Shown: positions 4,101 through 61,476 of the stretch, piece by piece
Layout of the letters: each line of letters starts with the position of its first letter
Numbering within the stretch: position 1 is the stretch's first letter
Assembly (NCBI RefSeq): GCF_004210375.1
Contig: NC_134834.1
Span: 14,245,857 to 14,309,856, forward strand
Source of the DNA: Tachypleus tridentatus
Lineage: Eukaryota; Arthropoda; Merostomata; Xiphosura; Limulidae
Direction of reading: 5' to 3'
DNA length: 64,000 bases
Made by a program: the position numbers and the translations under genes
Notes under the pieces: model-generated
Told to the model about the DNA's origin: nothing
Databases searched by the model: none
Seen by the model: only the letters and a program-made list of their open reading frames with translations

Positions 4101-7100
4101 GAAGTTACCAAAGTGTGGTTAACCTCTTATAACCATTCATATAAGTTGATTAAAATCTGTGTGAAAGATACCAGAAAATTGGATAAAACACCAGATCCTT
4201 CCTCTAGGGTTGAATCACAGCCATGAAGATGACATCAGGTTAGCAGTTCAGATACAGGATTAAAACCAGAGTTGGGCAACTTAATCACTGAACCAGTATA
4301 ATGAATTATTTATGAGCAGTAACTACATTAATTAGTATTACATACACTAATAAGTCAGTGTAAAATTGGTATTTCTGGTTATTACCATTGCTGGTCATTT
4401 CAATATTCCATTTATCAAAACCATGGTTAAATTTATTCCCATGTACATAACTTTAGGTAACAGGTTATCTGTTAACATAATGTTAGATAACAGGCTATCT
4501 GTACTGTACGTAACTTTAGATAAAGGGCTATCTGTACTGTACGTAACTTTAGATAAAGGGCTATCTGTACTGTATGTAACTTTAACCTTAGAAATAGTTT
4601 TTTTTTACTTGAAATTTGTTTAATGTTTGTGATTCATGGGGTGAGAGCTCATGATTTGAGGATTTCAGGTTTTTGACTCTTGTTATTCTAAACTTGTTTT
4701 CTTTATCCTTGTTATGGCAAAGTTACTGAAGTTGTATGCCACTCATTAATTTTGTATAACTGGCTGACAGCACCCAACCACCTTTTATTTTTGTTTGAAT
4801 GTACTGAGACGAGGAATACTGTTGTTATAGACTGATTAAGTGCACTTTGTTAGTGGGATCGTCATGATTATCAGTTACAAAATGCCACTCATTGCCTGAG
4901 TACAGTTAATTATATAGTAATTGCAAAAGATTAGTTAATATTTAATAATTAGATTGATCATGCACTAATTGATGGTCAGTTGTCACAGACATACTATAAG
5001 TATAATGCAAATTACTTGTACCAATTAATCTATACTAAGATGTTGTTACTTTACTTTTAAAAGTGGTTCTACATCATAACTGTTGTTTTCAATTCTTGCA
5101 GGTAAAAGGATGTAAGCCATCTCCACGCACCCACCACTCTGTAGCATCTACAGATGAAACTTTTATGATTTTCTCTGGAGGTCATCTTGGTTCTCAGCCT
5201 GTGGTGGACAAGTAAGTGAAATTTTGATTTATTAACTAAGCCTGATTCTATAAACTAGGACATGTAACACAGTTCAGTGATGGTTTTACTGTTGCACTGT
5301 TCGTGTCAAATAGTTGAGACGATGGTCTAAAGGTAGGGAAAAATCTTTTATCTTTTGGAAATCAAATGGTTTGGTGTGAGCCTAGAAAATACAGTGATGA
5401 CTGCTTTTTGTTTAATCATGTGATGTGCAAGTTTACAACACTTGAAATAAAAAGTTAATTTCTGACCTGAACGTTCAATCTGTTATAAGACCTGATGTAC
5501 CTGTACCTTCTGGGATTGTTTTCAACCTGACATGTCTGGCGAACCACAACTTTTCACACAAGGTGAACTTTATAATTTGGTGAGAGATTTAAGCCTTCCA
5601 AATGATTCTTCAGAGATTTTGGAGTCTAGACTTTGGGCTAATAACTTACTTTCTCTAGGAACAACATTTTACTGGTACAGAAATTGTGAGAAAGAGTTAA
5701 TACCATATGTTTCACAAGAAGGTTCATTACAACTATTTTGCTGAATTAAAACCAATGCTGTAAGCTGCAGTTTGTGAACCAAGTGAATGGAAATTGTTTG
5801 TTGGTTTCTCCAAAGATGTCTAAATGTTTGTTCTCCTTTGCAATGGTAACATGTATGCATCTGTTTCTATTACGTATTTGGTTTACTTGAAGGAAACATA
5901 TGAAAATCTCGGACTTCTTTTTAATGAGGTCAAATACAATTGGTGTTCTTTCTTTTTCTTAAGTTTGTTTTTAATTTTTTTAAACAAACATAATAATAAA
6001 AAATGTTTGTTTAGGTAAACAAGATAATAATTTGATCTAAGTAAGATTTTATTTTCACTTTGTAAACAAATGCTTATGTGATAGAAGAAAAAAATATTTT
6101 TAAAACCTACATTGTTAAATTATGGAACACCTGTTATTTAAACTAAAACAACTTATGAAGTTTAAGTATGTAGGCTTAAAAATGATAATAATTCTAACCT
6201 TTGACACTTGCACCTCTTACTCTGTAGTGTAGTCATTATTTATTTTGTATATCTCTCAGGAAGAACATTTCTAACCAGCCAGTGAGATTTCTCATCAGTG
6301 TTGGAAGAGCATTTCGAAATGCAGATTTCTGACTTTTAATATCAAAGTATCTTTAAATTATTCACTTGTTATATATGTATGAATTTTTAGTGAATTAGTG
6401 TGTGAAAATGTGGTTGTTATTATTCTTTTTCTGCTCTTGAAAATTATATAAAACAAAATGTTTTTTTTAAACTCCTACAGAGATGTATACGTCTTCCATC
6501 TTCCATCTTACTGTGGAACAAACTTAGTGTCAGTAGCATCTGTCCTCCTGCTAGACTAGGTCACGTAATGGTAGCTATGGCAGACCAGTTGTACGTCCAT
6601 GGGGGTACATCAGGAAATACTTTTTACGATGACCTCCACGTTCTCGACCTTTCTACGTGCAGGTGGAAAAGACTCGATCCTAAAGGGTGCATTCCTTGCG
6701 GACGAGCTGCTCATGGTGTAGTTGCAGTACAGAAGGACTTCTACGTGTTTGGTGGACTTACCAGTGAAGGAGTTGTAACGGACCTGTACAAATACGATAC
6801 AAGTACCTTGTTTTATGTGTAGTAATAACACCAAATCAAATCTGTCTCCCTAGATTGTAACGGACCTGTACAAATACGATACAAGTACCTTGTTTTATGT
6901 GTAGTAATAACACCAAATCAAATCTGTCTCCTGAGATTGTAACGGACCTGTACAAATACGATACAAGTACCTTGTTTTATGTTTAGTAATAACACCAAAT
7001 CAAATCTGTCTCCCTAGATTGTAACGAACCTGTACAAATACGATACAAGTACCTTGTTTTATGTGTAGTAATAACACCAAATCAAATCTGTCTCCCGAGA

Positions 7101-10100
7101 TTGTAACGGACCTGTACAAATACGATACAAGTACCTTGTTTTATGTGTAGTAATAACACCAAATCAAATCTGTCTCCCTAGATTGTAACGGACCTGTACA
7201 AATACGATACAAGTACCTTGTTTTATGTTTAGTAATAACACCAAATCAAATCTGTCTCCCGAGATTTTGAAAAATGGCTTTAACTGTACACAGTTATTAT
7301 ATTTTACGAATGATCGGAAGTGTCACATTGTGGGAGTTAAAGAAAGGTTTTGTGATTTTTCAGCCATCTTTCTTTCCAATTGCCGTAGAGAGAACTGTTT
7401 AAGAGTACACGAGAGATCTTGTATAAGTGTCATGTAATATTTTTCTTTAAAATAATAAATAATAATATATGTAAATCATACATTATCCAGGTCATTTATA
7501 TATAGTTCAGAATGTTTGGTTATTAACAATGAAGATGCATGTGTAGTTTTCCATGAAAAATATTTTGCCAAACACCAGAACTTTGTTTTTGTACTTTCTC
7601 GTATTGTCATGTTTCTAAAACACCTCCTATAATAAGGGTTTGTAATATGCAAAATCTACAGTACAGTTATGCATAAAAATGTTATGTTAGAAAACTTGCA
7701 TATTGTTTTGTTAATAGCACTTGAAGGGAAGTTTTGGTACAGATATTAAATGGAAGGAATTACAACTTGTGTAAGTGAAGGTTTTCATGCTCTTTCTAAA
7801 GATGTTTCAGTTTGTTTATTATGTATTTCTGTAGTCTGAACAGCATGATGTAGCTTGGTATTTCTTTATCCCTGAAGGTTTGGAGACATGGTTCAAAATT
7901 AACTGTGGAGATCAAGTCCCTCGTGGACGTCTGGATTTTGGAATTTGTCTTGTGGAATTGTCAACAGGTCAGTTTCCACATCTATTTATTAATATTTCTC
8001 CAAACTGTCACTTACAAATAATAAAATAGCCCAGTTTTCTTTACTATGATTTCTTTAAATCTGTAGATATTTATATATTTATGCTAGAGGTTCAAAACAC
8101 TCATGTTAACCCCCATAATGCAACTTTTTATTACCACATTGGAGCTCAGATTGCAGATGTTTCTCTAACAGAAGTAGTCATAGTTTTACATTGAATCTGT
8201 AAAACATTCAGAATGTGGAATGACTCATAAAATGTAACAAGACCAACAAGCTTATGTATCAGTAGCTCGTTCCGATATATTGAATGCTCAGAAACAAAGA
8301 GTTAAAGAAACTTGACAACAGTATACAAGTAATCTTATCTATAGAAAGGGAGAAGACAGAGTGGGCCTGTGTCATGAGTAATTAGTATAATAGCTGTTTA
8401 AAATAATTATGAGATAGAATGTTTAAACATCTTGTTAGCTTACAAAGGTAATGCTACATTACTTGGTAACATATGATGGGGCTCTTGTAGCTGGCAACAT
8501 ATCTAATGGTTAATGACAAAATGTGAAACCTATATTCACATAGATTCATTGTGATGAGTGTTGAAAGGTAATGGTTTGTCATTCTGTGTGTGACAAAATA
8601 CTACATTACTGTGTATGTAGTTTTAACACTTGCAGGCTGATTTACCACACATTCCATCAGTAATTTGAAAGACTGTTTCTATGAATATGATTATACAACA
8701 TGTTTTAGAATCACTTAATATTTACATTGGCATAATGTTATTCTTACAATAAGCCAGAAAGTATAGTTTAATGGTTCTGAACTTTCTGTTTAATACCATC
8801 ACTACAATAAGCCAGAAAGTATAGTTTCATGGTTCTGAACTTTGTGTTTAATAGCATCACGACAGTCAATTAAACCTTTAGTATGACTACTGTTATAGAA
8901 ACAACAACACAAATTCATGTGTAATAAGTTTTCTTGTTTTTAGTGTCAGATTGAACAATCTTTATTTCATCATTGGTATAATGGCAAATAAACAAAATGA
9001 TAGCTAAACCAATAAATTTAACTCAATAAATCTTACATATAATAAGTATTGTGTAACTCAATAAAATCTTACCAATAATAAGTATTGTATAAATCAATAA
9101 AATCTTACCTATAATAAGTATTGTGTAACTCAATAAAATCTTACCTATAATAAGTATTGTGTAACTCAATACAATCTTACCTATAATAAGTATTGTGTAA
9201 CTCAATAAATCTTACCTATAATAAGTATTGTGTAACTCAATACAATATTACCTATAATAAGTATTGTATAACTCAATACAATATTACCTATAATAAGTAT
9301 TGTATAACTCAATAAATCTCACCTACAATAAGTATTGTATAACTCAATACAATATTACCTATAATAAGTATTGTATAACTCAATACAATATTACCTATAA
9401 TAAGTATTGTATAACTCAATAAATCTCACCTACAATAAGTATTGTATAACTCAATAAATCTTACCTATAATAAGTATTGTATAACTCAATACAATATTAC
9501 CTACAATAAGTATTGTATAACTCAATAAATCTCACCTACAATAAGTATTGTATAACTCAATAAAATCTTACCTACAATAAGTATTGTGTAACTCAATAAA
9601 ATCTTACCTACAATAAGTATTGTGTAACTCAATAAAATCTTACCTATAATAAGTATTGTGTGACTCAATAAAATCTTACCTACAATAAGTATTGTGTAAC
9701 TCAATAAAATCTTACCTATAATAAGTATTGTGTGACTCAATAAAATCTTACCTACAATAAGTATTGTGTAACTCAATAAAATCTTACCTACAATAAGTAT
9801 TGTGTAACTCAATAAAATCTTACCTACAATAAGTATTGTATAACTCAATACAATATTACCTATAATAAGTATTGTGTAACTCAATAAAATCTTACCTATA
9901 ATAAGTATTGTATAACTCAATAAAATCTTACCTATAATAAGTATTGTATAACTCAATAACATCTTACCTACAATAAGTATTGTGTAACTCAATAACATCT
10001 TGCCTACAATAAGTATTGTATAACTCAATAAATCTTACCTATAATAAGTATTGTGTGACTCAATAAAATCTTACCTACAATAAGTATTGTGTAACTCAAT

Positions 10101-11158
10101 AAAATCTTACCTATAATAAGTATTGTATAACTCAATACAATATTACCTATAATAAGTATTGTATAACTCAATAAAATCTTACCTATAATAAGTATTGTAT
10201 AACTCAATAAAATCTTACCTATAATAAGTATTGTGTAACTCAATAACATCTTACCTATAATAAGTATTGTGTAACTCAATAACATCTTACCTACAATAAG
10301 TATTGTGTAACTCAATAACATCTTGCCTACAATAAGTATTGTGTAACTCAATAACATCTTGCCTATAATAAGTATTGTGTAACTCAAAATCTTACCTATA
10401 ATAAGTATTGTGTAACTCAATAAAATCTTACCTACAATAAGTATTGTGTAACTCAATAAAATCTTACCTACAATAAGTATTGTATAACTCAATAAAATCT
10501 TACCTACAATAAGTATTGTATAACTCAATAAAATCTTACCTACAATAAGTATTGTGTAACTCAATAAAATCTTACCTACAATAAGTATTGTGTAACTCAA
10601 TAAAAGCTTACCTATAAGTATTGTGTAACTCAATAACACCTTGCCTACAATAAGTATTGTGTAACTCAATAAAATCTTACCTACAATAAGTATTGTGTAA
10701 CTCAATAACATCTTGCCTACAATAAGTATTGTGTAACTCCATAACATCTTGCCTATAATAAGTATTGTATAACTCAATAAAATCTTACCTATAATAAGTA
10801 TTGTATAAATCAATAAAATCTTACCTATAATAAGTATTGTGTAACTCAATAAAATCTTACCTACAATAAGTATTGTATAACTCAATAAAATCTTACCTAC
10901 AATAAATATTGTGTAACTCAATAAAATCTTACCTACAATAAGTATTGTATAACTCAATAAAATCTTACCTATAATAAGTATTGTATAGTTTTTAACAAGG
11001 TTGTGAATTTTTAAAATATTAATTTTTCTTCTAATTAACTAGGAAATCATGAAACTGATGGAGAAGATGAGAACAAGAACAATCAGTGTATTTTAGTACA
11101 TGGAGGCATGGATACAAATGGTGAAATATTTGACGATACTTGGGTCTTTCCACTGTAG
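807..11158 (+). CDS. RABEPK: Rab9 effector p40-like kelch-repeat protein, five coding exons
   Basis: The coding exons are 807-1169, 5102-5211, 6481-6802, 7878-7967 and 11043-11158. They predict about 333 residues if one missing base in exon 3 is allowed; human p40 has about 372. Six kelch blades can be traced. Each has an R-x-G-H or similar opening, a hydrophobic strand ending in GG, and a tryptophan near the end: GG at residues 45-46 and 96-97, then HGG, FGG and the final VHGGM. The closing segment, GEIFDD before the stop, matches the p40 family. In vertebrates p40 binds GTP-Rab9 and promotes endosome-to-trans-Golgi transport; that role is carried over by homology. The ATG at 807 is the first in frame after a TAA at 783, so the start is well placed. 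All introns are GT-AG with compatible phases. As written, exon 3 has a frameshift leading to TAG at 6557-6559, so this copy is broken unless it is a sequence error. Confidence 0.9.
1858..2098. mobile_element. MITE, mariner-like, about 240 bp
   Basis: The left end reads CAGAGTGGCCCGTAAGTCCC and the right end is its near-perfect reverse complement, running GGGACTTACGGACCACCCTG. The inverted repeats continue through a CCATCCATAT motif. Each end is flanked by TA, the target site of Tc1/mariner elements. The interior has no transposase ORF, so it is non-autonomous. Confidence 0.8.
3008..3530. repeat. Minisatellite, 40-bp unit, about 13 copies
   Basis: The repeated unit carries ACATTATGTAACTTTGAACG followed by TAGCAACAAGCACAGGTA. 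Copies differ by few bases (AACACA/AACGCA, CAAGCA/CAAACA), and one region near 3185-3240 is shortened and rearranged. Each unit contains CACAGGTAAC, which resembles a donor site on the gene's strand. No coding role is seen. Confidence 0.95.
4440..4580. repeat. Short tandem repeat, about 33-bp unit, 4 copies
   Basis: Four copies of a unit containing GTAACTTTAGATAAAGGGCT and ATCTGTACTGTAC. The first copies are more diverged than the last two. It lies in RABEPK intron 1, and the 85-codon ORF across it follows from the repeat. Confidence 0.85.
5102..5211 (+). CDS. RABEPK: RABEPK exon 2
   Basis: The acceptor is TTGCAG at 5096-5101 and the donor GTAAGT begins at 5212. The exon is 110 nt, enters in phase 0 and leaves in phase 2. 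It encodes the start of blade 3: SPRTHHS, a hydrophobic strand (FMIFSGG) and VVDK, which aligns with the p40 segment leading into the next exon. Confidence 0.88.
5532..5985 (+). pseudogene. Relic of a transposon-like protein, amino-terminal part
   Basis: The 70-codon ORF at 5532-5744 (LVRDLSLPNDSSEILESRL, GTTFYWYRN) and its continuation to about 5985 (CEPSEWKLF, LLCNGNMYAS, LKETYENLGLLF) resemble a multicopy hypothetical-protein family that I recall from many arthropod genomes. The continuation crosses at least two in-frame stops and a frame change, so it is dead. It is the amino-terminal part of the family whose central part lies at 60420-61345. The family's enzymatic class is unknown to me. 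It sits in RABEPK intron 2 (5212-6480), which otherwise shows nothing. Confidence 0.65.
6481..6802 (+). pseudogene. RABEPK: RABEPK exon 3 with a one-base frameshift
   Basis: The acceptor is CTACAG at 6475-6480. The entry frame reads DVYVFHLPS, as expected for the end of blade 3, and would then run to TAG at 6557-6559. From about 6511 a different frame continues the family sequence (LWNKLS, PPARLGH, YVHGG, FYDDLHVLDL, YVFGG, LYKYDT) to 6802. The spacing from DVYVF to the conserved W is right only if one base is missing near 6505-6512. The whole gene also sums to 1001 nt, one short of a multiple of three. The exon leaves at ACAA with GTACCT as a weak donor. It could be a true null or pseudogenising mutation, a polymorphism or an assembly error. 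Confidence 0.8.
6773..7265. repeat. 82-bp tandem array containing the RABEPK exon 3 end and donor
   Basis: Six copies of an 82-bp unit. Copy 1 contains the real end of exon 3, about 30 nt encoding VVTDLYKYDT, then the donor GTACCT and 50 nt of intron. Copies 2-6 lie in intron 3 and keep both the exon-derived bases and the donor. A TAG at 6820-6822 follows the first donor in frame, so a transcript not cut at copy 1 would end there. Confidence 0.93.
7266..7877. other. Rest of RABEPK intron 3
   Basis: AT-rich intron sequence between the 82-bp array and exon 4. No repeat or coding match seen; the 70-codon ORF at 7225-7437 looks random. Confidence 0.5.
7878..7967 (+). CDS. RABEPK: RABEPK exon 4
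   Basis: The acceptor is CTGAAG ending at 7877; the exon opens with GT, completing a serine codon from exon 3, and continues LETWFKIN. This places the blade 5 tryptophan at the spacing found in p40. PRGRLDFG opens blade 6. The donor GTCAGT begins at 7968. The exon leaves in phase 1. Confidence 0.85.
7968..9017. other. First part of RABEPK intron 4
   Basis: Non-coding. It contains a direct duplication of about 58 bp (about 8748-8860; both copies hold AATAAGCCAGAAAGTATAGT followed by a CATGGTTCTGAAC-like stretch). Otherwise nothing is recognised. Confidence 0.6.
9018..10986. repeat. Minisatellite, 36-bp unit, about 55 copies
   Basis: The unit combines CTCAATAAAATCTTACCTAC and AATAAGTATTGTGTAA. 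Variants are TATAATAAG/TACAATAAG, GTGTAACTC/GTATAACTC, and deletions of one or two bases. Because 36 is a multiple of three, the minus strand stays open for 168 and 310 codons with a 12-residue period. That is a by-product of the repeat; there is no exon context. It fills the end of RABEPK intron 4 and stops about 55 bp before exon 5. Confidence 0.96.
11043..11158 (+). CDS. RABEPK: RABEPK exon 5 (terminal)
   Basis: The acceptor AACTAG ends at 11042. The exon encodes an acidic linker (HETDGEDEN) and then ILVHGGMDTNGEIFDDTW, the closing strand of the propeller, with TAG at 11156-11158. The match to the p40 carboxyl end confirms the frame. Confidence 0.88.
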
Positions 11159-14976: not shown

Positions 14977-17900
14977 CTGTAAAAAACAAATGACATACTT
15001 ATAATAATTCTAAACAAAATCACGTACATTAAAAGATACAAAATATTTGTGAAGAAAATAATGGAGTCCAAGTTCAGTTTAAAAATGTGTTCTTACCAAA
15101 ACAAGGAGATATTTTGATGCAAAGCAGAATTACTACTCACACCTAAAGTTATGATTTTAAACTTTCAAAATGTTACCATATTCTATACCTTAATATATTT
15201 TTTCCAGACATTTAAAACAAATTATCTACAATTACATTTTAGTTGTTATTGTCCTTTGAAGTAATTAAACAGAATAAACCTTATCCAGAATCTCGAGTGA
15301 AATTTTAATTCATTAGTGAAATCAGGAGTATCCAACATCAATCAACTCAAGTTCTTTCTTTTGTGCTCTGTTTATTTAACCATTCAAAAATATTGTTCAC
15401 TGTATATTATTATTCAAATACAGTTTTGTATCACATTTTCAATTAAAAGTTATTATTAAAATCTACTTTTCAACTTTGGTTGATTCCACGATTGTAATGA
15501 CAACATGAAAGTTAAATTGTGAGGGTGTAAACACTTATTTTACTGAAGTTATAACAGTCCGCACAGATCATCAAAATGTACGACACAATATCTAAAAACT
15601 GAACCTACGAGTGAGAAAAAAACGTTTTGTTTTCAAAGTTTTATTTCACTTATTTTTAAGATCAAAGTATCCAGCGTTATGTAACAAATCTGAGTCACTT
15701 GTACGACTCCAATACAAATGAGACAAACTTACTTTTATGTTTCCTTGACTGTTAGCTGCTACAACAACGTTAGTTCCCTGTAATGTTGAAGGAAACAGTC
15801 TATATGTATATACCAATAATTATCACATAACTTGGCAAGAACCAAATATTATGACAGTATTTCTTGATACATAAAGTACAAACACACCCTTAATGTTCGT
15901 ATAACCCACCGAGACAGAAACCTGTATTCTACGTGAAATAACTCATGCACGAGATACCCACCAAAATGAACGGGTTATTTTTTGAAAAACATGATTTACT
16001 GTACTGTACTGGGTTGCATCATACAAGGATTTAGAGAGAACTCCATTAATAACAGAAAACTAATGCAAAATTAGCTCTTACGAACGTTTAATTACAAGCA
16101 ACTAATGGATTTCAATAAAACAACTGTAAAAATCACTTACCATTCTCCAACAGACGGCGCTAACAAATTCATTTGTCTCTTCATCCTTTCTGTCTTTCTC
16201 CTTTAGAACAGGAAACAAATTATGTTAGTAGGACAATGTAACATGAAGCAGTGACTTGTATCAGATGTGACAAAGTAACGTTCTCACTGTCAAACCCCAG
16301 TTTGTCCGTCTTCACAAAGTAACGTTCTCGCTGTCAAACGCCAGTTTGTCCGTCTTCACAAAGTAACGTTCTCGCTGTCAAACGCCAGTTTGTCCGTCTT
16401 CAAAGTAACGTTCTCGCTGTCAAACGCCAGTTTGTCCGTCTTCACAAAGTAACGTTCTCGCTGTCAAACGCCAGTTTGTCCGTCTTCACAAAGTAACGTT
16501 CTCGCTGTCAAACGCCAGTTTGTCCGTCTTCACAAAGTAACGTTCTCGCTGTCAAACGCCAGTTTGTCCGTCTTCACAAAGTAACGTTCTCGCTGTCAAA
16601 CGCCAGTTTGTCCGTCTTCACAAAGTAACGTTCTCGCTGTCAAACTCCAGTTTGTCCGTCTTCACAAAGTAACGTTCTCGCTGTCAAACTCCAGTTTGTC
16701 CGTCTTCACAAAGTAACGTTCTCGCTGTCAAACGCCAGTTTGTCCGTCTTCACAAAGTAACGTTCTCGCTGTCAAACGCCAGTTTGTCCGTCTTCACAAA
16801 GTAACGTTCTCGCTGTCAAACGCCAGTTTGTCCGTCTTCACAAAGTAACGTTCTCCCTGTCAAACGCCAGTTTGTCCGTCTTCACAAAGTAACGTTCTCC
16901 CTGTCAAACGCCAGTTTGTCCGTCTTCACAGTAACGGTCTCCCTGTCAAACGCCAGTTTGTCCGTCTTCACAAGTAACGGTCTCCTGTCAAACGCCAGTT
17001 TGTCCGTCTTCACAAAGTAACGTTCTCAATGTCAAACGCCAGTTTGTCCGTCTTCACAAAGTAACGTTCTCAATGTCAAACGCCAGTTTGTCCGTCTTCA
17101 CAAAGTAACGTTCTCGCTGTCAAACGCCAGTTTGTCCGTCTTCACAAAGTAACGTTCTCGCTGTCAAACGCCAGTTTGTTCCTCTTCACAAAGTAACGTT
17201 CTCGCTGTCAAACGCCAGTTTGTCCGTCTTCACAGTAACGTTCTCGCTGTCAAACGCCAGTTTGTCCGTCTTCACAAAGTAACGTTCTCCTGTCAAACGC
17301 CAGTTTGTCCGTCTTCACAAAGTAACGTTCTCCTGTCAAACGCCAGTTTGTCCGTCTTCACAAAGTAACGTTCTCCTGTCAAACGCCAGTTTGTCCGTCT
17401 TCACAAAGTAACGTTCTCCCTGTCAAACGCCAGTTTGTCCGTCTTCACAAAGTAACGTTCTCGCTGTCAAACGCCAGTTTGTCCGTCTTCACAAAGTAAC
17501 GTTCTCGCTGTCAAACGCCAGTTTGTCCGTCTTCACAAAGTAACGTTCTCGCTGTCAAACGCCAGTTTGTCCGTCTTCACAAAGTAACGTTCTCGCTGTC
17601 AAACGCCAGTTTGTCCGTCTTCACAAAGTAACGTTCTCGCTGTCAAACGCCAGTTTGTCCGTCTTCACAAAGTAACGTTCTCGCTGTCAAACGCCAGTTT
17701 GTCCGTCTTCACAAGTAACGTTCTCGCTGTCAAACGCCAGTTTGTCCGTCTTCACAAAGTAACGTTCTCGCTGTCAAACGCCAGTTTGTCCGTCTTCACA
17801 AAGTAACGTTCTCGCTGTCAAACGCCAGTTTGTCCGTCTTCACAAAGTAACGTTCTCGCTGTCAAACGCCAGTTTGTCCGTCTTCACAAAGTAACGTTCT

Positions 17901-20900
17901 CGCTGTCAAACGCCAGTTTGTCCGTCTTCACAAAGTAACGTTCTCGCTGTCAAACGCCAGTTTGTCCGTCTTCACAAAGTAACGTTCTCGCTGTCAAACG
18001 CCAGTTTGTCCGTCTTCACAAAGTAACGTTCTCGCTGTCAAACGCCAGTTTGTCCGTCTTCACAAAGTAACGTTCTCGCTGTCAAACGCCAGTTTGTCCG
18101 TCTTCACAAAGTAACGTTCTCGCTGTCAAACGCCAGTTTGTCCGTCTTCACAAAGTAACGTTCTCGCTGTCAAACGCCAGTTTGTCCGTCTTCACAAAGT
18201 AACGTTCTCGCTGTCAAACGCCAGTTTGTCCGTCTTCACAAAGTAACGTTCTCGCTGTCAAACTCCAGTTTGTCCGTCTTCACAAAGTAACGTTCTCGCT
18301 GTCAAACGCCAGTTTGTCCGTCTTCACAAAGTAACGTTCTCCCTGTCAAACGCCAGTTTGTCCGTCTTCACAAAGTAACGTTCTCCTGTCAAACGCCAGT
18401 TTGTCCGTCTTCACAGTAACGTTCTCCTGTCAAACGCCAGTTTGTCCGTCTTCACAAAGTAACGTTCTCGCTGTCAAACGCCAGTTTGTCCGTCTTCACA
18501 AAGTAACGTTCTCGCTGTCAAACGCCAGTTTGTCCGTCTTCACAAAGTAACGTTCTCGCTGTCAAACGCCAGTTTGTCCGTCTTCACAAACGTAACGTTC
18601 TCGCTGTCAAACGCCAGTTTGTCCGTCTTCACAAAGTAACGTTCTCGCTGTCAAACGCCAGTTTGTCCGTCTTCACAAAGTAACGTTCTCGCTGTCAAAC
18701 GCCAGTTTGTCCGTCTTCACAAAGTAACGTTCTCGCTGTCAAACGCCAGTTTGTCCGTCTTCACAAAGTAACGTTCTCGCTGTCAAACGCCAGTTTGTCC
18801 GTCTTCACAAAGTAACGTTCTCGCTGTCAAACGCCAGTTTGTCCGTCTTCACAAAGTAACGTTCTCGCTGTCAAACGCCAGTTTGTCCGTCTTCACAAAG
18901 TAACGTTCTCGCTGTCAAACGCCAGTTTGTCCGTCTTCACAAAGTAACGTTCTCGCTGTCAAACGCCAGTTTGTCCGTCTTCACAAAGTAACGTTCTCGC
19001 TGTCAAACGCCAGTTTGTCCGTCTTCACAGTAACGTTCTCGCTGTCAAACGCCAGTTTGTCCGTCTTCACAAAGTAACGTTCTCGCTGTCAAACTCCAGT
19101 TTGTCCGTCTTCACAAAGTAACGTTCTCGCTGTCAAACTCCAGTTTGTCCGTCTTCACAAAGTAACGGTCTCCCTGTCAAACGCCAGTTTGTCCGTCTTC
19201 ACAAAGTAACGGTCTCCCTGTCAAACGCCAGTTTGTCCGTCTTCACAAAGTAACGTTCTCGCTGTCAAACTCCAGTTTGTCCGTCTTCACAAAGTAACGT
19301 TCTCGCTGTCAAACTCCAGTTTGTCCGTCTTCACAAGTAACGTTCTCGCTGTCAAACGCCAGTTTGTCCGTCTTCACAAAGTAACGTTCTCGCTGTCAAA
19401 CGCCAGTTTGTCCGTCTTCACAAAGTAACGTTCTCGCTGTCAAACGCCAGTTTGTCCGTCTTCACAAAGTAACGTTCTCGCTGTCAAACTCCAGTTTGTC
19501 CGTCTTCACAAAGTAACGTTCTCCCTGTCAAACGCCAGTTTGTCCGTCTTCACAAAGTAACGTTCTCCCTGTCAAACGCCAGTTTGTCCGTCTTCACAAA
19601 GTAACGTTCTCGCTGTCAAACGCCAGTTTGTCCGTCTTCACAAAGTAACGTTCTCGCTGTCAAACGCCAGTTTGTCCGTCTTCACAAAGTAACGTTCTCG
19701 CTGTCAAACGCCAGTTTGTCCGTCTTCACAAGTAACGTTCTCAATGTCAAACGCCAGTTTGTCCGTCTTCACAAAGTAACGTTCTCAATGTCAAACGCCA
19801 GTTTGTCCGTCTTCACAAAGTAACGTTCTCAATGTCAAACGCCAGTTTGTCCGTCTTCACAAAGTAACGTTCTCAATGTCAAACGCCAGTTTGTCCGTCT
19901 TCACAAAGTAACGTTCTCAATGTCAAACGCCAGTTTGTCCGTCTTCACAAAGTAACGTTCTCCTGTCAAACGCCAGTTTGTCCGTCTTCACAAAGTAACG
20001 TTCTCACTGTCAAACGCCAGTTTGTCCGTCTTCACAAAGTAACGTTCTCACTGTCAAACGCCAGTTTGTCCGTCTTCACAAAGTAACGTTCTCACTGTCA
20101 AACGCCAGTTTGTCCGTCTTCACAAAGTAACGGTCTCACTGTCAAACGCCAGTTTGTCCGTCTTCACAAAGTAACGTTCTCACTGTCAAACGCCAGTTTG
20201 TCCGTCTTCACAAAGTAACGTTCTCCCTGTCAAACGCCAGTTTGTCCGTCTTCACAAAGTAACGTTCTCCCTGTCAAACGCCAGTTTGTCCGTCTTCACA
20301 AAGTAACGTTCTCAATGTCAAACGCCAGTTTGTCCGTCTTCACAAAGTAACGTTCTCAATGTCAAACGCCAGTTTGTCCGTCTTCACAAAGTAACGTTCT
20401 CAATGTCAAACGCCAGTTTGTCCGTCTTCACAAAGTAACGTTCTCAATGTCAAACGCCAGTTTGTCCGTCTTCACAAAGTAACGTTCTCGCTGTCAAACG
20501 CCAGTTTGTTCCTCTTCACAAAGTAACGTTCTCGCTGTCAAACGCCAGTTTGTCCGTCTTCACAAAGTAACGTTCTCCCTGTCAAACGCCAGTTTGTCCG
20601 TCTTCACAAAGTAACGTTCTCCCTGTCAAACGCCAGTTTGTCCGTCTTCACAAAGTAACGTTCTCCTGTCAAACGCCAGTTTGTCCGTCTTCACAAAGTA
20701 ACGTTCTCCCTGTCAAACGCCAGTTTGTCCGTCTTCACAAAGTAACGTTCTCCCTGTCAAACGCCAGTTTGTCCGTCTTCACAAAGTAACGTTCTCAATG
20801 TCAAACGCCAGTTTGTCCGTCTTCACAAAGTAACGTTCTCGCTGTCAAACGCCAGTTTGTCCGTCTTCACAAAGTAACGTTCTCGCTGTCAAACGCCAGT

Positions 20901-23900
20901 TTGTCCGTCTTCACAAAGTAACGTTCTCCTGTCAAACGCCAGTTTGTCCGTCTTCACAAAGTAACGTTCTCGCTGTCAAACGCCAGTTTGTCCGTCTTCA
21001 CAAGTAACGTTCTCGCTGTCAAACGCCAGTTTGTCCGTCTTCACAAAGTAACGTTCTCGCTGTCAAACGCCAGTTTGTCCGTCTTCACAAAGTAACGTTC
21101 TCGCTGTCAAACTCCAGTTTGTCCGTCTTCACAAAGTAACGTTCTCGCTGTCAAACTCCAGTTTGTCCGTCTTCACAAAGTAACGTTCTCGCTGTCAAAC
21201 CCAGTTTGTCCGTCTTCACAAAGTAACGGTCTCCTGTCAAACGCCAGTTTGTCCGTCTTCACAAAGTAACGGTCTCCCTGTCAAACGCCAGTTTGTCCGT
21301 CTTCACAAAGTAACGGTCTCCCTGTCAAACGCCAGTTTGTCCGTCTTCACAAAGTAACGGTCTCCCTGTCAAACGCCAGTTTGTCCGTCTTCACAAAGTA
21401 ACGTTCTCACTGTCAAACTCCAGTTTGTCAGTCTTCACAAAGTAACGTTCTCACTGTCAAACTCCAGTTTGTCCGTCTTCACAAAGTAACGTTCTCACTG
21501 TCAAACGCCAGTTTGTCCGTCTTCACAAAGTAACGTTCTCACTGTCAAACGCCAGTTTGTCCGTCTTCACAAAGTAACGTTCTCACTGTCAAACGCCAGT
21601 TTGTCCGTCTTCACAAAGTAACGTTCTCACTGTCAAACGCCAGTTTGTCCGTCTTCACAAAGTAACGTTCTCAATGCCAAACGCCAGTTTGTCCGTCTTC
21701 ACAAAGTAACGTTCTCGCTGTCAAACGCCAGTTTGTCTGTCTTCACAAAGTAACGTTCTCCCTGTCAAACGCCAGTTTGTCCGTCTTCACAAAGTAACTT
21801 TCTTTCCATAAGTTGAGCTGGACAGTTAATTCAATTTACAAATTATCTATGAGCATCAGTTAGTGTTGGATAAAAGCATACAGTTAGTTTACAATTATTA
21901 CTGCTTTAGATTATTACTATTCATGTAATCAAAATATTAAAATTACAATTTTTCACAATTGTTTAGTTTATGCAAATTGTCACAACTCATAACAATGATC
22001 AACTTGTCAAATTATTTTGTACACTTATTTTTATATTATTCAATCTGTCCAAGTCCTATGTGGGAGTTTAATTGGATTAATGACTGAGGATTAATCAGAA
22101 TATTCTTCTAACTGTTCAATCGTTATAGTTTAATTGGATTAATGACTGAGGATTATTCAGAATATTCTTCTAACTATTCAGTTCTAGACACACATTATTT
22201 AATCTTTGTTTAAAGATAATTTAGGCACAAAAATTACCAAGACATGGTATAAATAAAATATTATCTTTCTTTAAACTCAGTAATGGAAGGTTTAACACAA
22301 AGTGTATTATTTAGTTAAAATAATAAAAATATAAACTATTCTGATTCATTCCAGTAAATTTTTCAACACTTAACATTAATTTGATGGAGAAAAAAGAAAA
22401 CCTAAAAAGTTGACACCATATAAAAATACATGGTGTTCGGAAAGTCACTGTGCAGTTTTGTAATCACATACAAGTGCAAAGTGACTTTCCAAACACCCTG
22501 TATAATCCCCACAAGCAATACTTTAAACTGACAGATATTATCACACAAATATACAAGTTACCCTAATTACTTTAAGAATTGGAAAGGACACACATTTAGC
22601 ATTAATACAACTACAAGAATCACAACTGGTTTAAGAGTTGGTAAACCTAAAAGGCTGAAGCTTCTGAAGAAACACAATTTTTGGTTAAAATATTTTTATT
22701 ATACTTCTCTTACAAATAAAAATAGTCCACGAGGCATTTTGAACTCAGAAAAGTGTGTAAATCAGTGATCTAAAATGGTATATTTTAAAACGTGATATGA
22801 GATCTGTTAACCAATCAAAATAATGTTCAGGGACCTACTGGTCCATGTTGGCTTTCCCATCCTTTAACCCAAACTAAAACTGTTAAAAACTATTAAAGCC
22901 TTATCACTCATAAACCTATCAAGCTTTGTTTTTAACTCAGTCAAATTCACTGTCTCCACAATATCTGAAGGTAATCCATTCCATAAACCAACCACTCTTA
23001 TTTAAAATATAAAAAACTGTCTCAGCTGAAGACAGCTTCTACCTGACCTACATCTATACTTGTGTTGATTCATCAACAGTATTAATTCCTTTTACAATCT
23101 TAGACATTTCAATCAGATTCCAACTCTTTCTTTTTAAGAGAAAACAATATGAAGATTTCATCCTCTCTTTATATGGCAAACATTTTAGTAACCCTTTGAA
23201 GAATTCAATGTCTTTAAGGTAAGGAACCCAAGACTGAACAATATTCTAAATGTGGCCTAACCAGTTAAATAACCTCTTTAAAATTGTATTCAATATTTCT
23301 GTAGATACAACCTAAAATACTATTTGCCATACCACTGACAAGAGCACACTACTTGGATGGCTTAAAAGACTGATCAACTAATACACCAAGGTCCTTTTAT
23401 TTTGGGACATTAAGGTTATCCATATCCAAAACATAATTTAGTAATAACCCACATGCAGTATCTTGTATTTATTATAATTAAAATCCATCCACCATTTATC
23501 TGTCCAACTCACTAAATGATCTAAATCCTTTTGTAAATCAGTAACATCCTCTTCACAGCCATCAACACCCAAGACCTTAATATCATCAGTACATTTACAG
23601 AATTTGTTGGCCACTCCTTGATCTATGTCATTACTGTAAAATCAAAAACATTAATCCAGTTTGACTGAACTCTACTTATAAGAGCCCTCTGCTCCCCCCT
23701 CAAGCCACTCTTCTATCCAATTAGTTACCTCATCCTCCACACTTATAGAGATGCGTTTCTTTACAAATCTTGTCACTTGCTTTCTGAAAATCCAGTACCA
23801 TTTTCAAAGAATGCCAAAAGACTCGTACATCAAGATTTGTCTTCAGGGAAACCAATACTAACTATCCAATAAAATTCTAAACTTTGTTAAATAACTTTGC

Positions 23901-26900: not shown

Positions 26901-29900
26901 TTTCTATTCCCTGTATAAACTGTACATTAATGATAATAGCCTACAGTTAATAATGTGGTAGAGAAAATAACATGATAGTAATTCAGAAGGTCTTAGAGGT
27001 TTATACAAATGAAATTCATGAACTGTAATGTGATAAAACAATTTTATCCTTAAAATGAATATCACCTTGCATGTGAATTATTCAGTCTCAATGAAATAAT
27101 TAGAATAAATAATAAATTTTTAGTAAAAAGAAAGAAACGATATTACAAAGTTTATTTTCCTGGAATTACATGCATTTAGAAAACTTCCTGTGAAGTTAAA
27201 TAATTTCGTCAACTAGTTGTATTTTTGAAATGAAATTCGACAAGAGTTACGTCACATCCTAGAAATGTAGGGATGTGGTGTGTTAAACAGATCTAGAACT
27301 CACCACAAGCAACATAGTCACCGTCAGTGGCTAAACCAACAAAATTCTTCTCGTTTATGTGACCCTTGAAAGAACGCAAACAGTGGGGTTTGTTGATGTT
27401 CCATAATTTCAACTGGCTATCTGTAGAACTATAGAATAAACAACATTCAAGTTCACATTTCAACTGGCTATCTGTAGAACTATAGGATAGATCAAACAAC
27501 ATTCAGGTTCAAATTTAAACTGGCTGTCTGTAGAACTATGGGATAGAAGCAAACAACATTCAGGTTCAAATTTAAACTGGCTATCTGTAGAACTATAGGA
27601 TAGAAGCAAACAACATTCAGGTTCAAATTTAAACTGGCTGTCTGTAGAACTATAGGATAGAAGCAAACAACATTCAGGTTCAAATTTAAACTGGCTGTCT
27701 ATAGAACTATAGGATAGAAGCAAACAACATTCAGGTTCAAATTTAAACTGGCTGTCTGTAGAACTATAGGATAGAAGCAAACAACATTCAGGTTCAAATT
27801 TAAACTGGCTGTCTGTAGAACTATAGGATAGAAGCAAACAACATTCAGGTTCAAATTTAAACTGGCTGTCTGTAGAACTATAAGATAGAAGCAAACAACA
27901 TTCAGGTTCAAATTTAAACTGGCTGTCTGTAGAACTATAAGATAGAAGCAAACAACATTCAGGTTCAAATTTAAACTGGCTGTCTGTAGAACTATAGGAT
28001 GGAAGCAAACAACATTCAGGTTCAAATTTAAACTGGCTGTCTGTAGAACTATAGGATGGAAGCAAACAACATTCAGGTTCAAATTTAAACTGGCTGTCTG
28101 TAGAACTATAGGATAGAAGCAAACAACATTCAGGTTCAAATTTAAACTGGCTGTCTGTAGAACTATAGGATAGAAGCAAACAACATTCAGGTTCAAATTT
28201 AAACTGGCTGTCTGTAGAACTATAAGATAGAAGCAAACAACATTCAGGTTCAAATTTAAACTGGCTGTCTGTAGAACTATAGGATGGAAGCAAACAACAT
28301 TCAGGTTCAAATTTAAACTGGCTGTCTGTAGAACTATAGGATGGAAGCAAACAACATTCAGGTTCAAATTTAAACTGGCTGTCTGTAGAACTATAGGATA
28401 GATCAAACAACATTCAGGTTCAAATTTAAACTGGCTGTCTGTAGAACTATAGGATAGATCAAACAACATTCAGGTTCAAATTTCAACTGGCTATCTGTAG
28501 AACTATAGGATAGATCAAACAACATTCAGGTTCAAATTTCAACTGGCTATCTGTAGAACTATAGGATAGATTAAACGACATTCTATGCTAAAATTAAATT
28601 TTAGGATATTTTTCAAACAAAGAAAAGTATTTTTAATCTTAACATGAAACTCACTTTGCAGTTGGAGCAGGCAACACTTTGAATCCATGTATTAGTGGAG
28701 AAATCTTTGGTGAGAATACCACATTAAAAATTGTGATTGTTACCTCTAAATATCACTCTCAATGACTGCTCGAAGCTTGCAACATGTGTCAAAGATACAC
28801 AAAACATACAAGTAATAGTATGGAAACTACGGAGGTCAACCTGGGGTTATGAAGTCATCTGATTTGACCAAGCTTGTAGTGAAAGAGTTAATGACTACAC
28901 CAGACCAGCGTATAACTCAAAACCTTGTATTTTAACACAAACCACTTCTAACATGAATACCAACAACAAGTGGACACTTAACCAGGAACAGAAAGACTAA
29001 AGTTAGAATTATGAAACACAACACTTTTTATAACATTTATGACAGAGAAGACAACCACCTTACAACATGAATAATGCTAGAATAATGGGTTCAGAACCGC
29101 TTACGAGAAAAGATAGAAAGACACTTCTTGCATTCACCTAACTGATAACATAAAGCAGCCAACCTAGTATAGAAGTAAACAACATTAGATACACCCCCTA
29201 AAAGGTGCAAGATCCTAAACAAGTGGATACCATAGCAGCCTGTGGCACAGCAGTACGTCTACAGACACAAACCACTAAAAACCTGGTTTCAATACCTGTG
29301 ATGGGCAGACAACAGATAGCCCATTGTGTAGCTTTGTGCTTAACTGCAAGCAACCCATAGCAGCCTTTCTGTGAAGATGTAGGATATTATATCTCAGCCT
29401 CTGCCACTATGAAAATAGTTCGTATGACGTATCTAAACATGGCAGCTGATTGATTAACAGCTGAAAAAAAATAGGATAAAAATTAGTAATCAGACTTGGG
29501 TGTAAAGGTTGATAACCATGACAGAGACCAACATCCAATCACCACAGCTTTATCTAAAGTAATTAACTTTAAAATTGTTGGCCCTCATTAATAACACAGC
29601 ACTGTGGGGATGTAATATTACAATTTAAACGACACTTCCAAAAATCTAAACCACTTACGCCGATACAATTTCTTCGGTATTCAGAAACTTCACATACGAA
29701 ACAGCTTTTTTATGTCCACGGAACGTTCCCAAGGGTTGTTTAATGTTTCTAAGGTCGTAATAATGCACGCTGTGATCTGAAACGAAACATGTCTTAAATA
29801 GGCGACAAAGTACCTAGATTTAATATGACTAACATTTTCTCTTTACTTTGATTAGTATAGAAAGTTACATAATAGAAGAATCTAACTTTTCTTGTGAGAA

Positions 29901-32900: not shown

Positions 32901-35900
32901 TGCACTGTCACAGTATGGCACACTTGTCTTCTTTTAAAAAATCAAAACAAAAAAACTTAACAGTTACACGTACTTGAGACACTGGTCATAACCAACTTAT
33001 ACTGGTCATTAAAAAATTGATTTCCAAAAGCACTCTTATAATGGATAAAAGGCAGTTCTATAACACTAGTTGACATATCATTTTAATGGAATAGAAAAGC
33101 CAATAAGGTCCAAGAACACAACATCATTTAATTGTTGTAAAAGTTCAGTAACACATGCAGTAACATTAAAACATCATATCTGATTTTTATTCCAAAGAAC
33201 ACAACAAAATAAACTGAATATAAAAAGTTCAAGAGGTACAGGTGGACATCTAAAAATGTCAAGAAGGGAGTAACTGTGTGTCACACTGTAATAACCAAAC
33301 TTTTGAATACAGTAATACCAGTCTATCAGCTCCAAGTTAGTTTTCCTTCATATAATAAATCAAAGTAAAGATAGCGAGCCTTTTAAAAATATGGCAAACT
33401 ATGCTGTCCGATTTCAGCTTCTAAAAAGTTATAAAGATAACCTGAATAACCACCATGTTGTAACATTATATCAATACTTATAAACACAGGATGTAGTACA
33501 TACCTTTAGAATCATCAGATCCCGATGCAACTAGTTTGGTGTCAACACGGTTGAAATCAACACTCCAGCAACGTTTCTCGTGTTCCTAGATGCACATGTA
33601 AAATGACAAAAGTTTGAGATCAGTTGATACAAAGTTTCTTTAGATATCATGTTAAGATATGCATGTTTATGTATACAACAAAGTGACCATATTTCTCTTA
33701 AAATATATTTCAGACAACTGTCCAAGTAAGGAGGAAAAACAACGTGTAAGACAACGAGTTGTTGTTGCATTTTTGTTTATAACACAACTGGGACTGTACT
33801 GGTTATTAAAACAATGAATTAAAAAACTATCACAAAATAGCAAAAAAAATTGACTGACTAATATAAAACTATACCACTATATGACACAAACACCAAAATG
33901 ACTTCCCCAGGTCTTTGGATAATTTTTCTGACAAACGTACACACACTGTGTTCTTCATATTTTACTATATACACAAGCACTTGAACAAAAATACTGTGTT
34001 TTGTGTAGTAAAGCTATCTCTGTTTTTGAGCTACTGAACAGAGGGAAGGCAGCTAGTCAGTAACACCCCATTAATTACTTTAAAAGATTGACTGTCACCC
34101 TTATAATGCACCAACACTTAAAGTGCAGGGAAGATTTTGAGATACACAGGTTTTAAATCCAGTTTAACAGCCCTAAAATCCAGAGTTCTATTACAGGGCT
34201 AACCCATGCCTTAAAACAACACTATGAATTAATTACAATAATGTTTTAAAGAAGTGTGCTTAAAAATAGAAATTAATAAATACTGGCATTATTTGTTTCT
34301 CAGTCGTGGAAACTAATTTCAAGACTTGTTTTGGATTATACCCACATAAAAACCAATTCACCACACTAATACACAGTCCATTATAACCCAATAGTTAAGA
34401 GTTATGATTGTATATTTATTTGTTTAATTGACTAAGTCACATCCTACTACTCTATCATCATGGTTAATTTATCTTTAAACCCAATTAAAACAAAATTTTC
34501 TTTATAATAATAGTTTACCTACCTATCAGTGCAACTGTTTATAAGAAACAATTATTGTCAGAAAAATACAAACTTTAACACTTGAATAATATTATTAAGA
34601 TGTGTCCTTCACATAAAATAATGGTACCAAAATATAAAGTGTAAATCAGGCCTACAAACCTTGATGTTAGATTCTATATCAACATTTCACGATGTGACCA
34701 TACCTGAAAGTTCCGTATCTTCTGACCGGTGAAAGCGTCCCAGATGGTGACAGTTCCCTCATAATCACTGCTTGCTAACATCCCTTTGTGATACGAACTC
34801 CAGCTGATACAGCTTGAACATACAAGTTTTCTTATTACTCACTGAAAACACTGCACTCAGTACTCAAAGAAACAGGTCTATTTCTGTATACACACTACAT
34901 AATAGCTTCTACACGTAAACCCCAACATAAGTTTTCTATCAGTTTGATAAAAACATCACTTTTTTCTGGATTATTTACCCACTAGAGAAGTTTAGTATTT
35001 GCCAAAGCATGGATCTAGTCCTTGTTATATAGTTCAGTTAAAGCATGTTTGTTAGTGCACATGCGAGATAGTGTACGTTTCTCTACCCAAATTGTTAAAG
35101 CACACAAGTAAAAATATTTCACTCAATAAATTATTCTAGTTAATAAATAAAGTGACCAGTTTAGGAAAACAAACTTTATATATTTTAACATATAAACTAT
35201 TAACATCTTAAACTTCGAGACTGCCGTGAGTCATTACTGAATATCATGTCACTTGTGATGTTAATTTTTACCGTGACATCTATTTTGTGCAAAATAACAA
35301 TCAAATATATTGTTTGATCTAGTGCTAACTATCTGACAAAAAAAAAACTCGGATCAAATTGGAATACCACTAAAAAGAATGGTTTAAATACATGTGGTTA
35401 AAAATGAATTAATCATAAAATCATTAAAATTACACAGAAAAGTATAATACTTTGTAATTACTATATGCAGGGATCTCTGTAGTATCTTTCTGTATTGTAG
35501 TAAAAATTATGTAAACCAATGAAACAAATGATATAAATCCTAAACATTTCTTTCATATTAAGCCTGTTTTTAATTTTTTGTTCAAAAGGTTATATTTATT
35601 ACCAAAATTTTAAATTGACTGTTTAAAGCTCATACATGTTTTTAAATCATGTTTGTGTACAGGAAGAAACGAACAATTTAAGAATCATAAAATCATCTAC
35701 ATTCAATCCACAGCGGAACTGGCCCGATTTTTGAATTGCACATCCACAACGGAACTGGCCCGATTTTTAAATTACACATCCACAACGGAACTGGCCCAAT
35801 TTTTAAATTACACATCCACAACGGAACTGGCCCGATTTTTGAATTGCACATCCACAACGGAACTGGCCCGATTTTTAAATTACACATCCACAACGGAACT

Positions 35901-38900
35901 GGCCCAATTTTTAAATTACACATCCACAACGGAACTGGCCCGATTTTTAAATTACACATCCACAACGGAACTGGCCCGATTTTTAAATTACACATCCACA
36001 ACGGAACTGGCCCGATTTTTAAATTACACATCCACAACGGAACTGGCCCAATTTTTAAATTACACATCCACAACGGAACTGACCCGATTTTTTAATTACA
36101 CATCCACAACGGAACTGACCCGATTTTTAAATTACACATCCACAACGGAACTGACCCGATTTTTAAATTACACATCCATAACGGAACTGGTCCGATTTTT
36201 AAATTACATATCCACAACTGAACTAACCTGATTTTTGAATTACACACCATCTCGTTCACTGGATAGTGCATGTCTATGGTATCCATTATCGCAGTGCCAT
36301 AATCAAAGACCTGCATCATAATTAATATGTTAAAAGAACAGCTGAGCAATAAAAATTATAAAATCAAACAAAAAAAGACAAAAGTAATTAATGTGTTTAT
36401 CAGATTCAGTTTCAACTGTATTTCTAGTACATAATCCAAACAATGTTTTAAAAGAACATATTAATTGTAAATAGTATAAAATTAACATTACTGTAAGTAA
36501 ACATTAAAACTGAACTGGGTATTGGAACTATAGAATGTAGTTTGGGCTTATAATTTGTTAACATTGGAGAACTGAAGGAAAATATGTTAAGTGAGTATAA
36601 TTATTCACTGTCAGGTTTAGCACTCAATTTAACCACAGCCCTCAGTTTGTAACCAACTTGTACATGAACAACCACAGCTCTCAGTTCATAACTCCATGTT
36701 TGCCAACAATCAATTCATCAGTACGACCCTTATTATAGAACTCAAAATGATCTTGCTTCCTGTATTTGTTCTTTTTTCAATATTTTATTTAAACTTCAAA
36801 CAGAATCAAATATTTTAAACTGTGTTTAAATAAGTGAAAAGTTACAGGATAAGGGAGATAAAAATCAATAAATTTACTATAAATTAATGAAATTTAATGG
36901 ATTATTAAATCTTCAGAGATTTTTACATTTGCAAAAATGATGCCGTATTTTAACTGAATGGGAAAGAAAACAATTTCTTTGAATTAACAAAAGAAACAAA
37001 AATTAACTTTGAGTCAGAACAGTCAGGTTTTGCAATATAATTACATTAATTTACATATAATAATGGCTTGTGGAAAGATCCTTTGGGAATAGGTTTCCTT
37101 AGGAATGTAGCATTAGAGCTGGCCATAAATACTGCTAGACAAAGAACAGCAACACACTTGTCTGTATCATAGCACAGCTATATGAATCAGGTTTTCACAT
37201 CTGTTCTAAACTGTAGATTGTTAGTCTTAGGAGAAGGTGTAACAAGGATTTTAGACATTAAAAAATTTTTTTCTATGAAAAAGTAAACATCCTCCTCGAC
37301 TGTAACCGATTTAAAGAAAATGGTAACTTTAGAAAGATGCTGTTCTGGAAATTAGTTTAATTAAAAATGTATCATACCTAAACTCTCCACCAGGTGATAC
37401 TTAAACAGTTAACATTATTTCTTGCTCGCAACTTCTTTAACCTCTTGACTGACAAGTAATTCAGTTGCTACGATAGCTCCTATGCCAGTTTTTTTTCCAG
37501 CAAAATTGAGTAATTTTTAAAACATTGAATCAAAAGTGAAACAATTTGCAAGTAGGTCAAATGCATGTATGGTGCTGACATCTGGCGTTGAAGTTAGGTA
37601 TTATTGAGAAGGAATTAACTCATCCGTGGCACTGTGTTACCGATCCGTTTGGTCGAGTTATCTCGTCTACAGCACTGAACAGGTTAATGTAGAGTACAGT
37701 AACATATCAACCACTAAAACAAACTTAAAAAATACCACGTACTGGACTGTTTGTCACAGATGCCATAAACACACTCCAACAGGAGGTCTCAGAAACTTAC
37801 ATTATTTCAATATGACATGAAGGATAAAATTACTTGGAGATATCTGACTAACAGTCATGAGCAAGAAAAACTTGAAACTTAACATGTTGTATCAATATAA
37901 AAACTTACCTTAATTTTTTTAGTGACTCCAGCAATTGCAAAAAATTCATTATCTTTATCAAATTCAATACTGTGGGTGGAGAGAAAAAAGTAAAATTAGT
38001 AAACAAATAAATAACAAAAAAAAAACAATTTTTCTACATAGAAATAACAGTTTGGGATGTGAGAAATATTACATATGTTTGGCTGAAAATTCCAACGTTT
38101 TAAAATGCATAATAAATTATTACTTTTAAATTTTATGCAATAAATTATTATGCATTTTAAAATACTGGAGTCTTCAACTGATTTCATTACAAAATGTTCA
38201 TCATACTTTTGTGCAAAAATGTACTTCAAGTATCTACCAACAACAAACAGGTTCAAGTATTACTTTCAGCACGATGCACTTTCAACCTTGAGAATATACA
38301 CAGTAGAAAACTGGAAAAAAAATTCCAGAAAACAAGTATTCATTAGATGGAGTCACTGCTTACCACGGAGGGCAACTGTCTGACAGCATCCACTGTCACC
38401 TTTTGGGATACCTTTCACTGGAGAATAGGGAGATTGACCATCACATGACTGAAAGACTACATATGTGTGTTGTGTTTTGTTCCTTGACCTACATGTTACA
38501 AGTTGAGAATCTTAGCCATCAGGCCATATGGGATAGTACAACAATTTTGGAAAAGATGCAGATGTAAGGTTTTGACAACTTTTAAATTTATACAACAAGT
38601 AAAGTGAGGATAAGTACAGCAACTTAAAAATGGCATTAGCTTATCCTACTGCACAAAGTTGTAAAAATGGCATTAGCTTATCCTACTGCACAAAGTTGTC
38701 TAAATGGCATTAGCTTATCCTACTGCACAAAGTTGTAAAAATGGCATTAGCTTATCCTACTGCACAAAGTTGTAAAATGGCATTAGCTTATCCCACTGCA
38801 CAAAGTTGTAAAATGGCATTAGCTGTATGGCATTACTGCACAAAGTTGTAAAATGGCATTAGCTTATCCTACTGCACAAAGTTGTAAAATGGCATTAGCT

Positions 38901-61345: not shown

Positions 61346-61476
61346 CTTGACGAGAGAAGTTCTACAACATTCTAGAAATTTATTGTAAGTTCTACAACAT
61401 TCTAGAATGTTCTTGAAAGTTCAAGAAAATTCTCTATCAGCTACTCAGCACTGAATCTACCTGGAATGTTCTGGAA
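61346..61476 (-). promoter_or_regulatory. Heat-shock-element array upstream of the transposon-like ORF
   Basis: At 61400-61432 seven alternating half sites follow in exact 5-bp register: TTCnnGAAnnTTCnnGAAnnTTCnnGAAnnTTC. Two more, one degenerate (CAA for GAA), extend it to 61390. A second three-unit element, GAATGTTCTGGAA, is at 61464-61476. A 19-bp segment, AGTTCTACAACATTCTAGA, occurs twice (61358 and 61388 region). HSF trimers bind three or more such units. The array begins about 45 bp before the ATG at 61345. Confidence 0.7.

Follow-up and report, generated by a model that had tools for sequence, protein, structure and literature searches.

In the horseshoe crab Tachypleus tridentatus, an exon of the COP1 gene is preceded by a minisatellite (array A) whose units repeat the 3′ end of the intron together with the 5′ end of that exon, which places 20 decoy acceptors upstream of the authentic one. 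We consider it probable that array A is a mirage, as minisatellites straddling intron/exon boundaries in lancelets are called (PMC3087553, PMC3902484), and that it is tolerated since the copy nearest the exon keeps the junction, while exon definition and decay deal with the decoys. The anatomy of array A, its reading frames and the annotated junction at 27428 are direct observations. The mirage type itself was already known; what is new is that it occurs in a further lineage, that it has many copies and that two companion arrays (B and C) lie in the same window, which is the whole 64-kb stretch of DNA that was analysed.

The COP1 model comprises 19 exons on the minus strand, between 53133 and 14959, and all its introns are GT-AG; it leaves out the N-terminal exon and, of the annotated protein, the part EMIQDHQ...SRY. 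The exon behind array A is the 15th of the 19, with further upstream exons outside the model, and its flanking introns measure 2230 and 1253 nt. Among the best 120 of 3166 matches, the one closest to the model-derived protein of 545 aa was the T. tridentatus E3 ubiquitin-protein ligase COP1-like isoform X2 (P0001), at 88% over the whole 545-aa query with gaps counted. In their alignment, inspected by eye, the only differences are the unmodelled exons and the residues SCI, which P0001 lacks. The gene model, the motif positions and the P0001 junction bear out the identity of the gene and the exon edges given in the original prediction. The features concerned are the following (a slash marks a splice junction):

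27304..27428, minus strand, 125 nt: COP1 exon STDSQLKLW...DYVACG, with acceptor edge 27428 and donor after 27304 (gene model; same junction in T. tridentatus P0001)
29659..29776, minus strand: upstream COP1 exon, with donor GGC/gtaagt (gene model)
27405..28570, minus strand: array A, 57-bp minisatellite with units that join the end (3′) of a COP1 intron to the start (5′) of the exon behind it (TRF, motif positions, unit alignment)
27429..27479, minus strand: 51-nt unit of array A, the sole decoy (edge 27479) read through in frame, adding 17 codons (script)
27480..28558, minus strand: 19 further decoy acceptors (edges 27535 to 28558), giving a premature stop if used (script)

Twenty copies of the acceptor and exon start had been expected here, and TRF and the motif positions confirmed 20 units, that is, 21 acceptors with the authentic one, whose exon edges run from 28558 to 27428. 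TRF placed the array at 27405-28570 (period 57, 20.6 copies, 96% matches). In the whole window the motif [CT]ATAG/TTCTA occurs 21 times on the minus strand, always at these edges and nowhere outside array A, and not at all on the plus strand. The proposed unit length of 57 bp holds for 15 units, but the other five have 56 or 51 nt; from 28558 to 27428 the edges are spaced by 56, 56, 56, 15 times 57, 56 and 51 nt. Each unit joins about 24 nt of exon start to about 33 nt of intron end. The 15 units of 57 nt share a mean pairwise identity of 98% (105 pairs), and eight distinct sequences are found among the 20 units. The acceptor hexamer is CTATAG in 17 of the 21 sites, TTATAG in three (28219, 27934, 27877) and CCATAG in one (27535).

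Variation in array A is ordered from edge to centre. The units at 28558, 28502 and 27479 retain the exon's own GATAGCCAGTTGAAAT, and the inner units mostly present GACAGCCAGTTTAAAT instead; both derived changes (GAC and TTTAAA) are common to 16 of the 20 units, and unit 27592 has one of them. The exon's version in the two distal units and the proximal-most one, with derived changes inside, is as expected if the centres of arrays are homogenised and their edges left out, which was described for a lancelet mirage in PMC3087553. The array probably arose by tandem duplication of a segment of about 57 bp, which took in some 33 nt of intron end, with the pyrimidine-rich tract and CTATAG, and some 24 nt of exon start; ordinary minisatellite turnover would then have expanded it. 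The AG-free stretch before the acceptor is 22 nt at 28558, 38-39 nt at the other 19 decoys and 33 nt at 27428. A YTNA branch-site candidate lies between -15 and -50 of all 21 acceptors, and is uninformative for site choice; at 28558 the candidates sit beyond an earlier AG.

When the exon 29776-29659 was joined by script to each of the 21 acceptors, reading remained open only through 27428 and 27479. The other 19 decoys lead to a premature stop, which falls at 27462 for 16 of them and at 27701, 28405 and 28485 for 28446, 28502 and 28558, respectively. Array A was also considered as a coding array and this was rejected: units of 57 nt share an open frame, but the 56-nt units break it and stops follow. 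The script reproduced the prediction that acceptor 27479, 51 nt upstream of 27428, would add 17 codons in frame without a stop. The broader suggestion that an insert in the WD40 propeller is tolerated stands for this decoy, whose frame is open, but not for the 19 that meet a stop inside the array; thus the functional idea holds for 27479 only.

The annotated protein P0001 joins exactly at 27428, without insert, and human COP1 structures present the same unbroken sequence at this junction. It is very unlikely that part of the transcripts use 27479 and encode a form of COP1 whose propeller is 17 residues longer, since P0001, the cluster member viewed, has no such insert, which moreover would interrupt a conserved WD40 segment; human COP1 is unbroken at this point. 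In a search with the peptides encoded by the arrays, none of 2166 candidates from a protein database clustered at 90% identity scored at E<=10; this null is a weak one, given that the query was a single composite region of arrays A and B and that matches had to share five-residue words. On the other hand, the frame is open, 27479 outscores the authentic acceptor (10.63 against 8.59, see below), and P0001 stands for a cluster of four members, of which one was viewed, so a 17-residue variant could be hidden behind it. Array A probably leaves the COP1 protein unchanged. At arrays A, B and C alike, the annotated T. tridentatus proteins (P0001 and, for array C, P0121) use the exon-proximal site; these proteins are computed models, not transcripts.

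The other alternative in the original prediction, that the true acceptor is somehow favoured, agrees with the annotated junction, but neither the sequence of 27428 nor its predicted accessibility favours it. A position matrix was built from 22 acceptors of the window, with each true site left out when scored. The score of 27428 (8.59) was the 8th of 23 true sites, and five of the 20 decoys exceeded it (28502, 28446, 28390 and 27479 at 10.63; 28558 at 9.41), the remaining 15 ranging from 5.6 to 7.2. The matrix is weak evidence either way, because it rests on only 22 acceptors and its top score among the 150 AGs of the region (11.56) fell on an AG at 27420, inside the exon. A stronger authentic acceptor was discarded as the selector, since a quarter of the decoys (5/20) outscore it. 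Structural hiding of the decoys was likewise discarded: in local folding 27428 is the least accessible of the 21 acceptors of array A (predicted accessibility 0.27).

The likeliest selector of 27428 would be exon definition, in which the donor at 27304 and sequence within the exon pair with an acceptor, and the exon-proximal acceptor may be favoured. According to the human data in PMC9225289, sites nearest across the exon are favoured when the flanking introns are long, as the two introns here are; there is a general tendency to prefer the upstream acceptor, which weakens as introns become long, and for long introns and acceptors of similar strength this preference is described as only 'significantly reduced'. 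For this reason exon definition by itself may be insufficient to confine splicing to the last acceptor of the 21. Occasional use of the 19 decoys with a stop would be removed by nonsense-mediated decay, and the array may be near-neutral.

The same human preference for upstream acceptors, though weaker with long introns (PMC9225289), could also be read in another way. Array A might act as a leaky or regulated splicing sink, where a sizeable share of the transcripts goes to decoys, meets a stop and is degraded, and where array length sets COP1 dosage. Premature stops from 19 decoys, the five decoys that outscore 27428 and its low accessibility fit with this, which we regard as unlikely, since the annotated isoform joins at 27428, chance in a neutral array would give stops equally, and the lancelet mirages are reported to occur without disturbance of splicing (PMC3087553, PMC3902484). 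A tolerated mirage is the more probable reading: with the original junction preserved in the exon-proximal copy, the other units would be removed as part of the intron.

In lancelets, PMC3087553 and PMC3902484 describe mirages in the globins BflGb6 and BflGb9 and in Adh3, and report them also for PGBD5 and troponin C. As described there, they share with array A a tandemly duplicated boundary, which may be that of an acceptor or of a donor, many copies with splice signals and edges that escape homogenisation. Length polymorphism, somatic instability included, is a further trait of the mirage type. In the window, an array lies across an intron/exon boundary at 27428, 36228 and 6802. Units made of exonic and intronic sequence carry splice signals in 21 of 21 copies of array A, 4 of 15 of array B (GT) and 6 of 6 of array C, and the unit alignment of array A presents homogenised inner units and edge units left out. 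Compared with the mirage described for BflGb6, which has 3 or 6 units of 150-160 bp, array A has shorter units (51-57 bp) and more of them (20 extra copies). The host also differs, being a horseshoe crab with three arrays in one 64-kb window, which are known here from the DNA sequence. No report of mirages in horseshoe crabs was found in the open-licence literature, judged by title and abstract start, and no title there pointed to relevant work on tandem repeats, minisatellites included, in these animals.

Intron gain by tandem genomic duplication, as presented in PMC4974935 and PMC2891723, also involves a within-gene tandem duplication bearing on splice signals, but it makes a new intron, whereas array A copies an existing boundary. 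On the donor side, the described system nearest to arrays B and C is the minisatellite of human IFI6 (6-16). Its unit has 12 nt. As cited in PMC4526556, Turri et al. 1995 found this minisatellite at an exon end, with units that act as splice sites, and the copies are said there to be used in three mRNA species. Short units, donor side and copies in use set IFI6 apart from array A, which is on the acceptor side and whose decoys are not known to be used.

The donor-side companions and their exons are located as follows:

35706..36246, minus strand: array B, 36-bp minisatellite made of a COP1 exon end and donor, 15 junction copies from 36228 to 35724 (TRF, listing)
36228..36310, minus strand: COP1 exon VFDYG...VCNSKI, with authentic donor CAG/gttagt after 36228 (gene model; donor kept in P0001)
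6773..7266, plus strand: array C, 82-bp minisatellite made of a RABEPK-like exon end and donor, six copies from 6802 to 7212 (TRF, listing)
6481..6802, plus strand: RABEPK-like exon ending YKYDT, with authentic donor after 6802, joined to 7878 (translation; YKYDTSLETW junction in P0121)

In array B, the 14 decoys comprise three GT, ten GC and one AC, and with the authentic donor GT is found in four of the 15 copies. In the donor matrix the authentic donor reached 12.2 and the GT decoys 9.1, with no other copy above 3.1. Two of the GT decoys would lengthen the protein in frame, 36156 by 24 residues and 36120 by 36, and the third, 36084, leads to a stop. P0001 joins donor 36228 to an acceptor 9 nt downstream of the modelled one. 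A candidate second acceptor, CTGTATCAG, lies 9 nt within the COP1 exon that follows the array B intron (34812-34804, minus strand), in keeping with P0001 lacking SCI; the annotation of this 9-nt variant suggests transcript support.

In array C, the donor CAA/gtacct is identical in all six copies, with a score of -2.2, which is lower than that of any of the 20 matrix donors (minimum 1.1) and than those of other GTs in this intron, which reach 6.6. Each of the five downstream donors leads to a stop. In the further units (6803-7266, plus strand) an AG precedes each exon copy, and in three of five it belongs to CCCTAG. With an acceptor and a donor each, these units resemble small cassette exons, the situation from which intron gain through mirages was proposed in PMC3087553. 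The RABEPK-like gene lies on the plus strand, and 94% of the query aligns with T. tridentatus P0121 at an identity of 99%, with one E/Q difference. Its frame is broken (6481-6560, plus strand) between ...VYVFHLPSY and WNKLSV, where the annotated P0121 is continuous, which suggests an assembly error or a variant. Taken together, this break and the E/Q difference point to a different assembly or haplotype from that of the annotated protein.

This interrupted frame indicates that small errors are possible in the assembly, and near-identical arrays are easily misassembled. Even so, it is highly improbable that array A, or its copy number, is an assembly artefact, considering its eight sequences in 20 units, the lengths of 51, 56 and 57 nt, the ordered variation from edge to centre and the two independent arrays placed in the same relation to exons.

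Among the 12 tandem arrays of the window with a period of at least 30, three contain a junction: A (27428), B (36228) and C (6802). Random placement with one founder unit per array gave 0.26 expected against these three (P = 0.0019), and placement of 11 arrays within the two genes only gave 0.32 (P = 0.0033). For the eight arrays with five or more copies, 0.19 were expected (P = 0.0006), and without array A two of 11 arrays remained (P = 0.021 or 0.044, by the overlap required). The test used 49 junctions, four of them approximate, with overlapping TRF rows merged and the ATA microsatellite at 58586-59837 left out. The enrichment is only suggestive, because it comes from one window that was chosen for one of its arrays. 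We raise tentatively, as a possibility we would not bet on, that exon/intron junctions are preferred birthplaces of horseshoe crab minisatellites, owing either to some process linked with transcription or splicing or to a sequence preference.

Other repeats and frames were observed in the window. A 44-bp minisatellite of 126 copies (16270-21803) ends 70 nt upstream of the COP1 acceptor 16200. Another, with a 36-bp unit and 55 copies (9019-10984), stops 59 nt short of the final acceptor of the RABEPK-like gene, on its upstream side, and contains the donor-like TAGGTAAGA 36 times on its minus strand. An open frame inside a COP1 intron (23438-23641, minus strand) resembles what we take to be a piece of a LINE reverse transcriptase, and a 278-codon open frame lies upstream of COP1 (60584-61420, minus strand).

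In array A, 21 near-identical acceptors compete in a conserved gene, and donors do likewise in arrays B and C. Transcription order would favour the far end of array A, but in arrays B and C the near end. Should all three use the exon-proximal site, as the annotated proteins suggest, then transcription order is not the rule, and the arrays may be considered as natural tests of exon definition and splice-site choice. Following the lancelet reports, the three cases within 64 kb of chelicerate DNA suggest that mirages are more widespread than the literature found indicates, and raise the question of why minisatellites start at splice junctions. If a preferential birth at junctions were true, mirages would be recurrent and genome-wide in at least two distant animal lineages, and would be a standing source of alternative splicing and intron gain.
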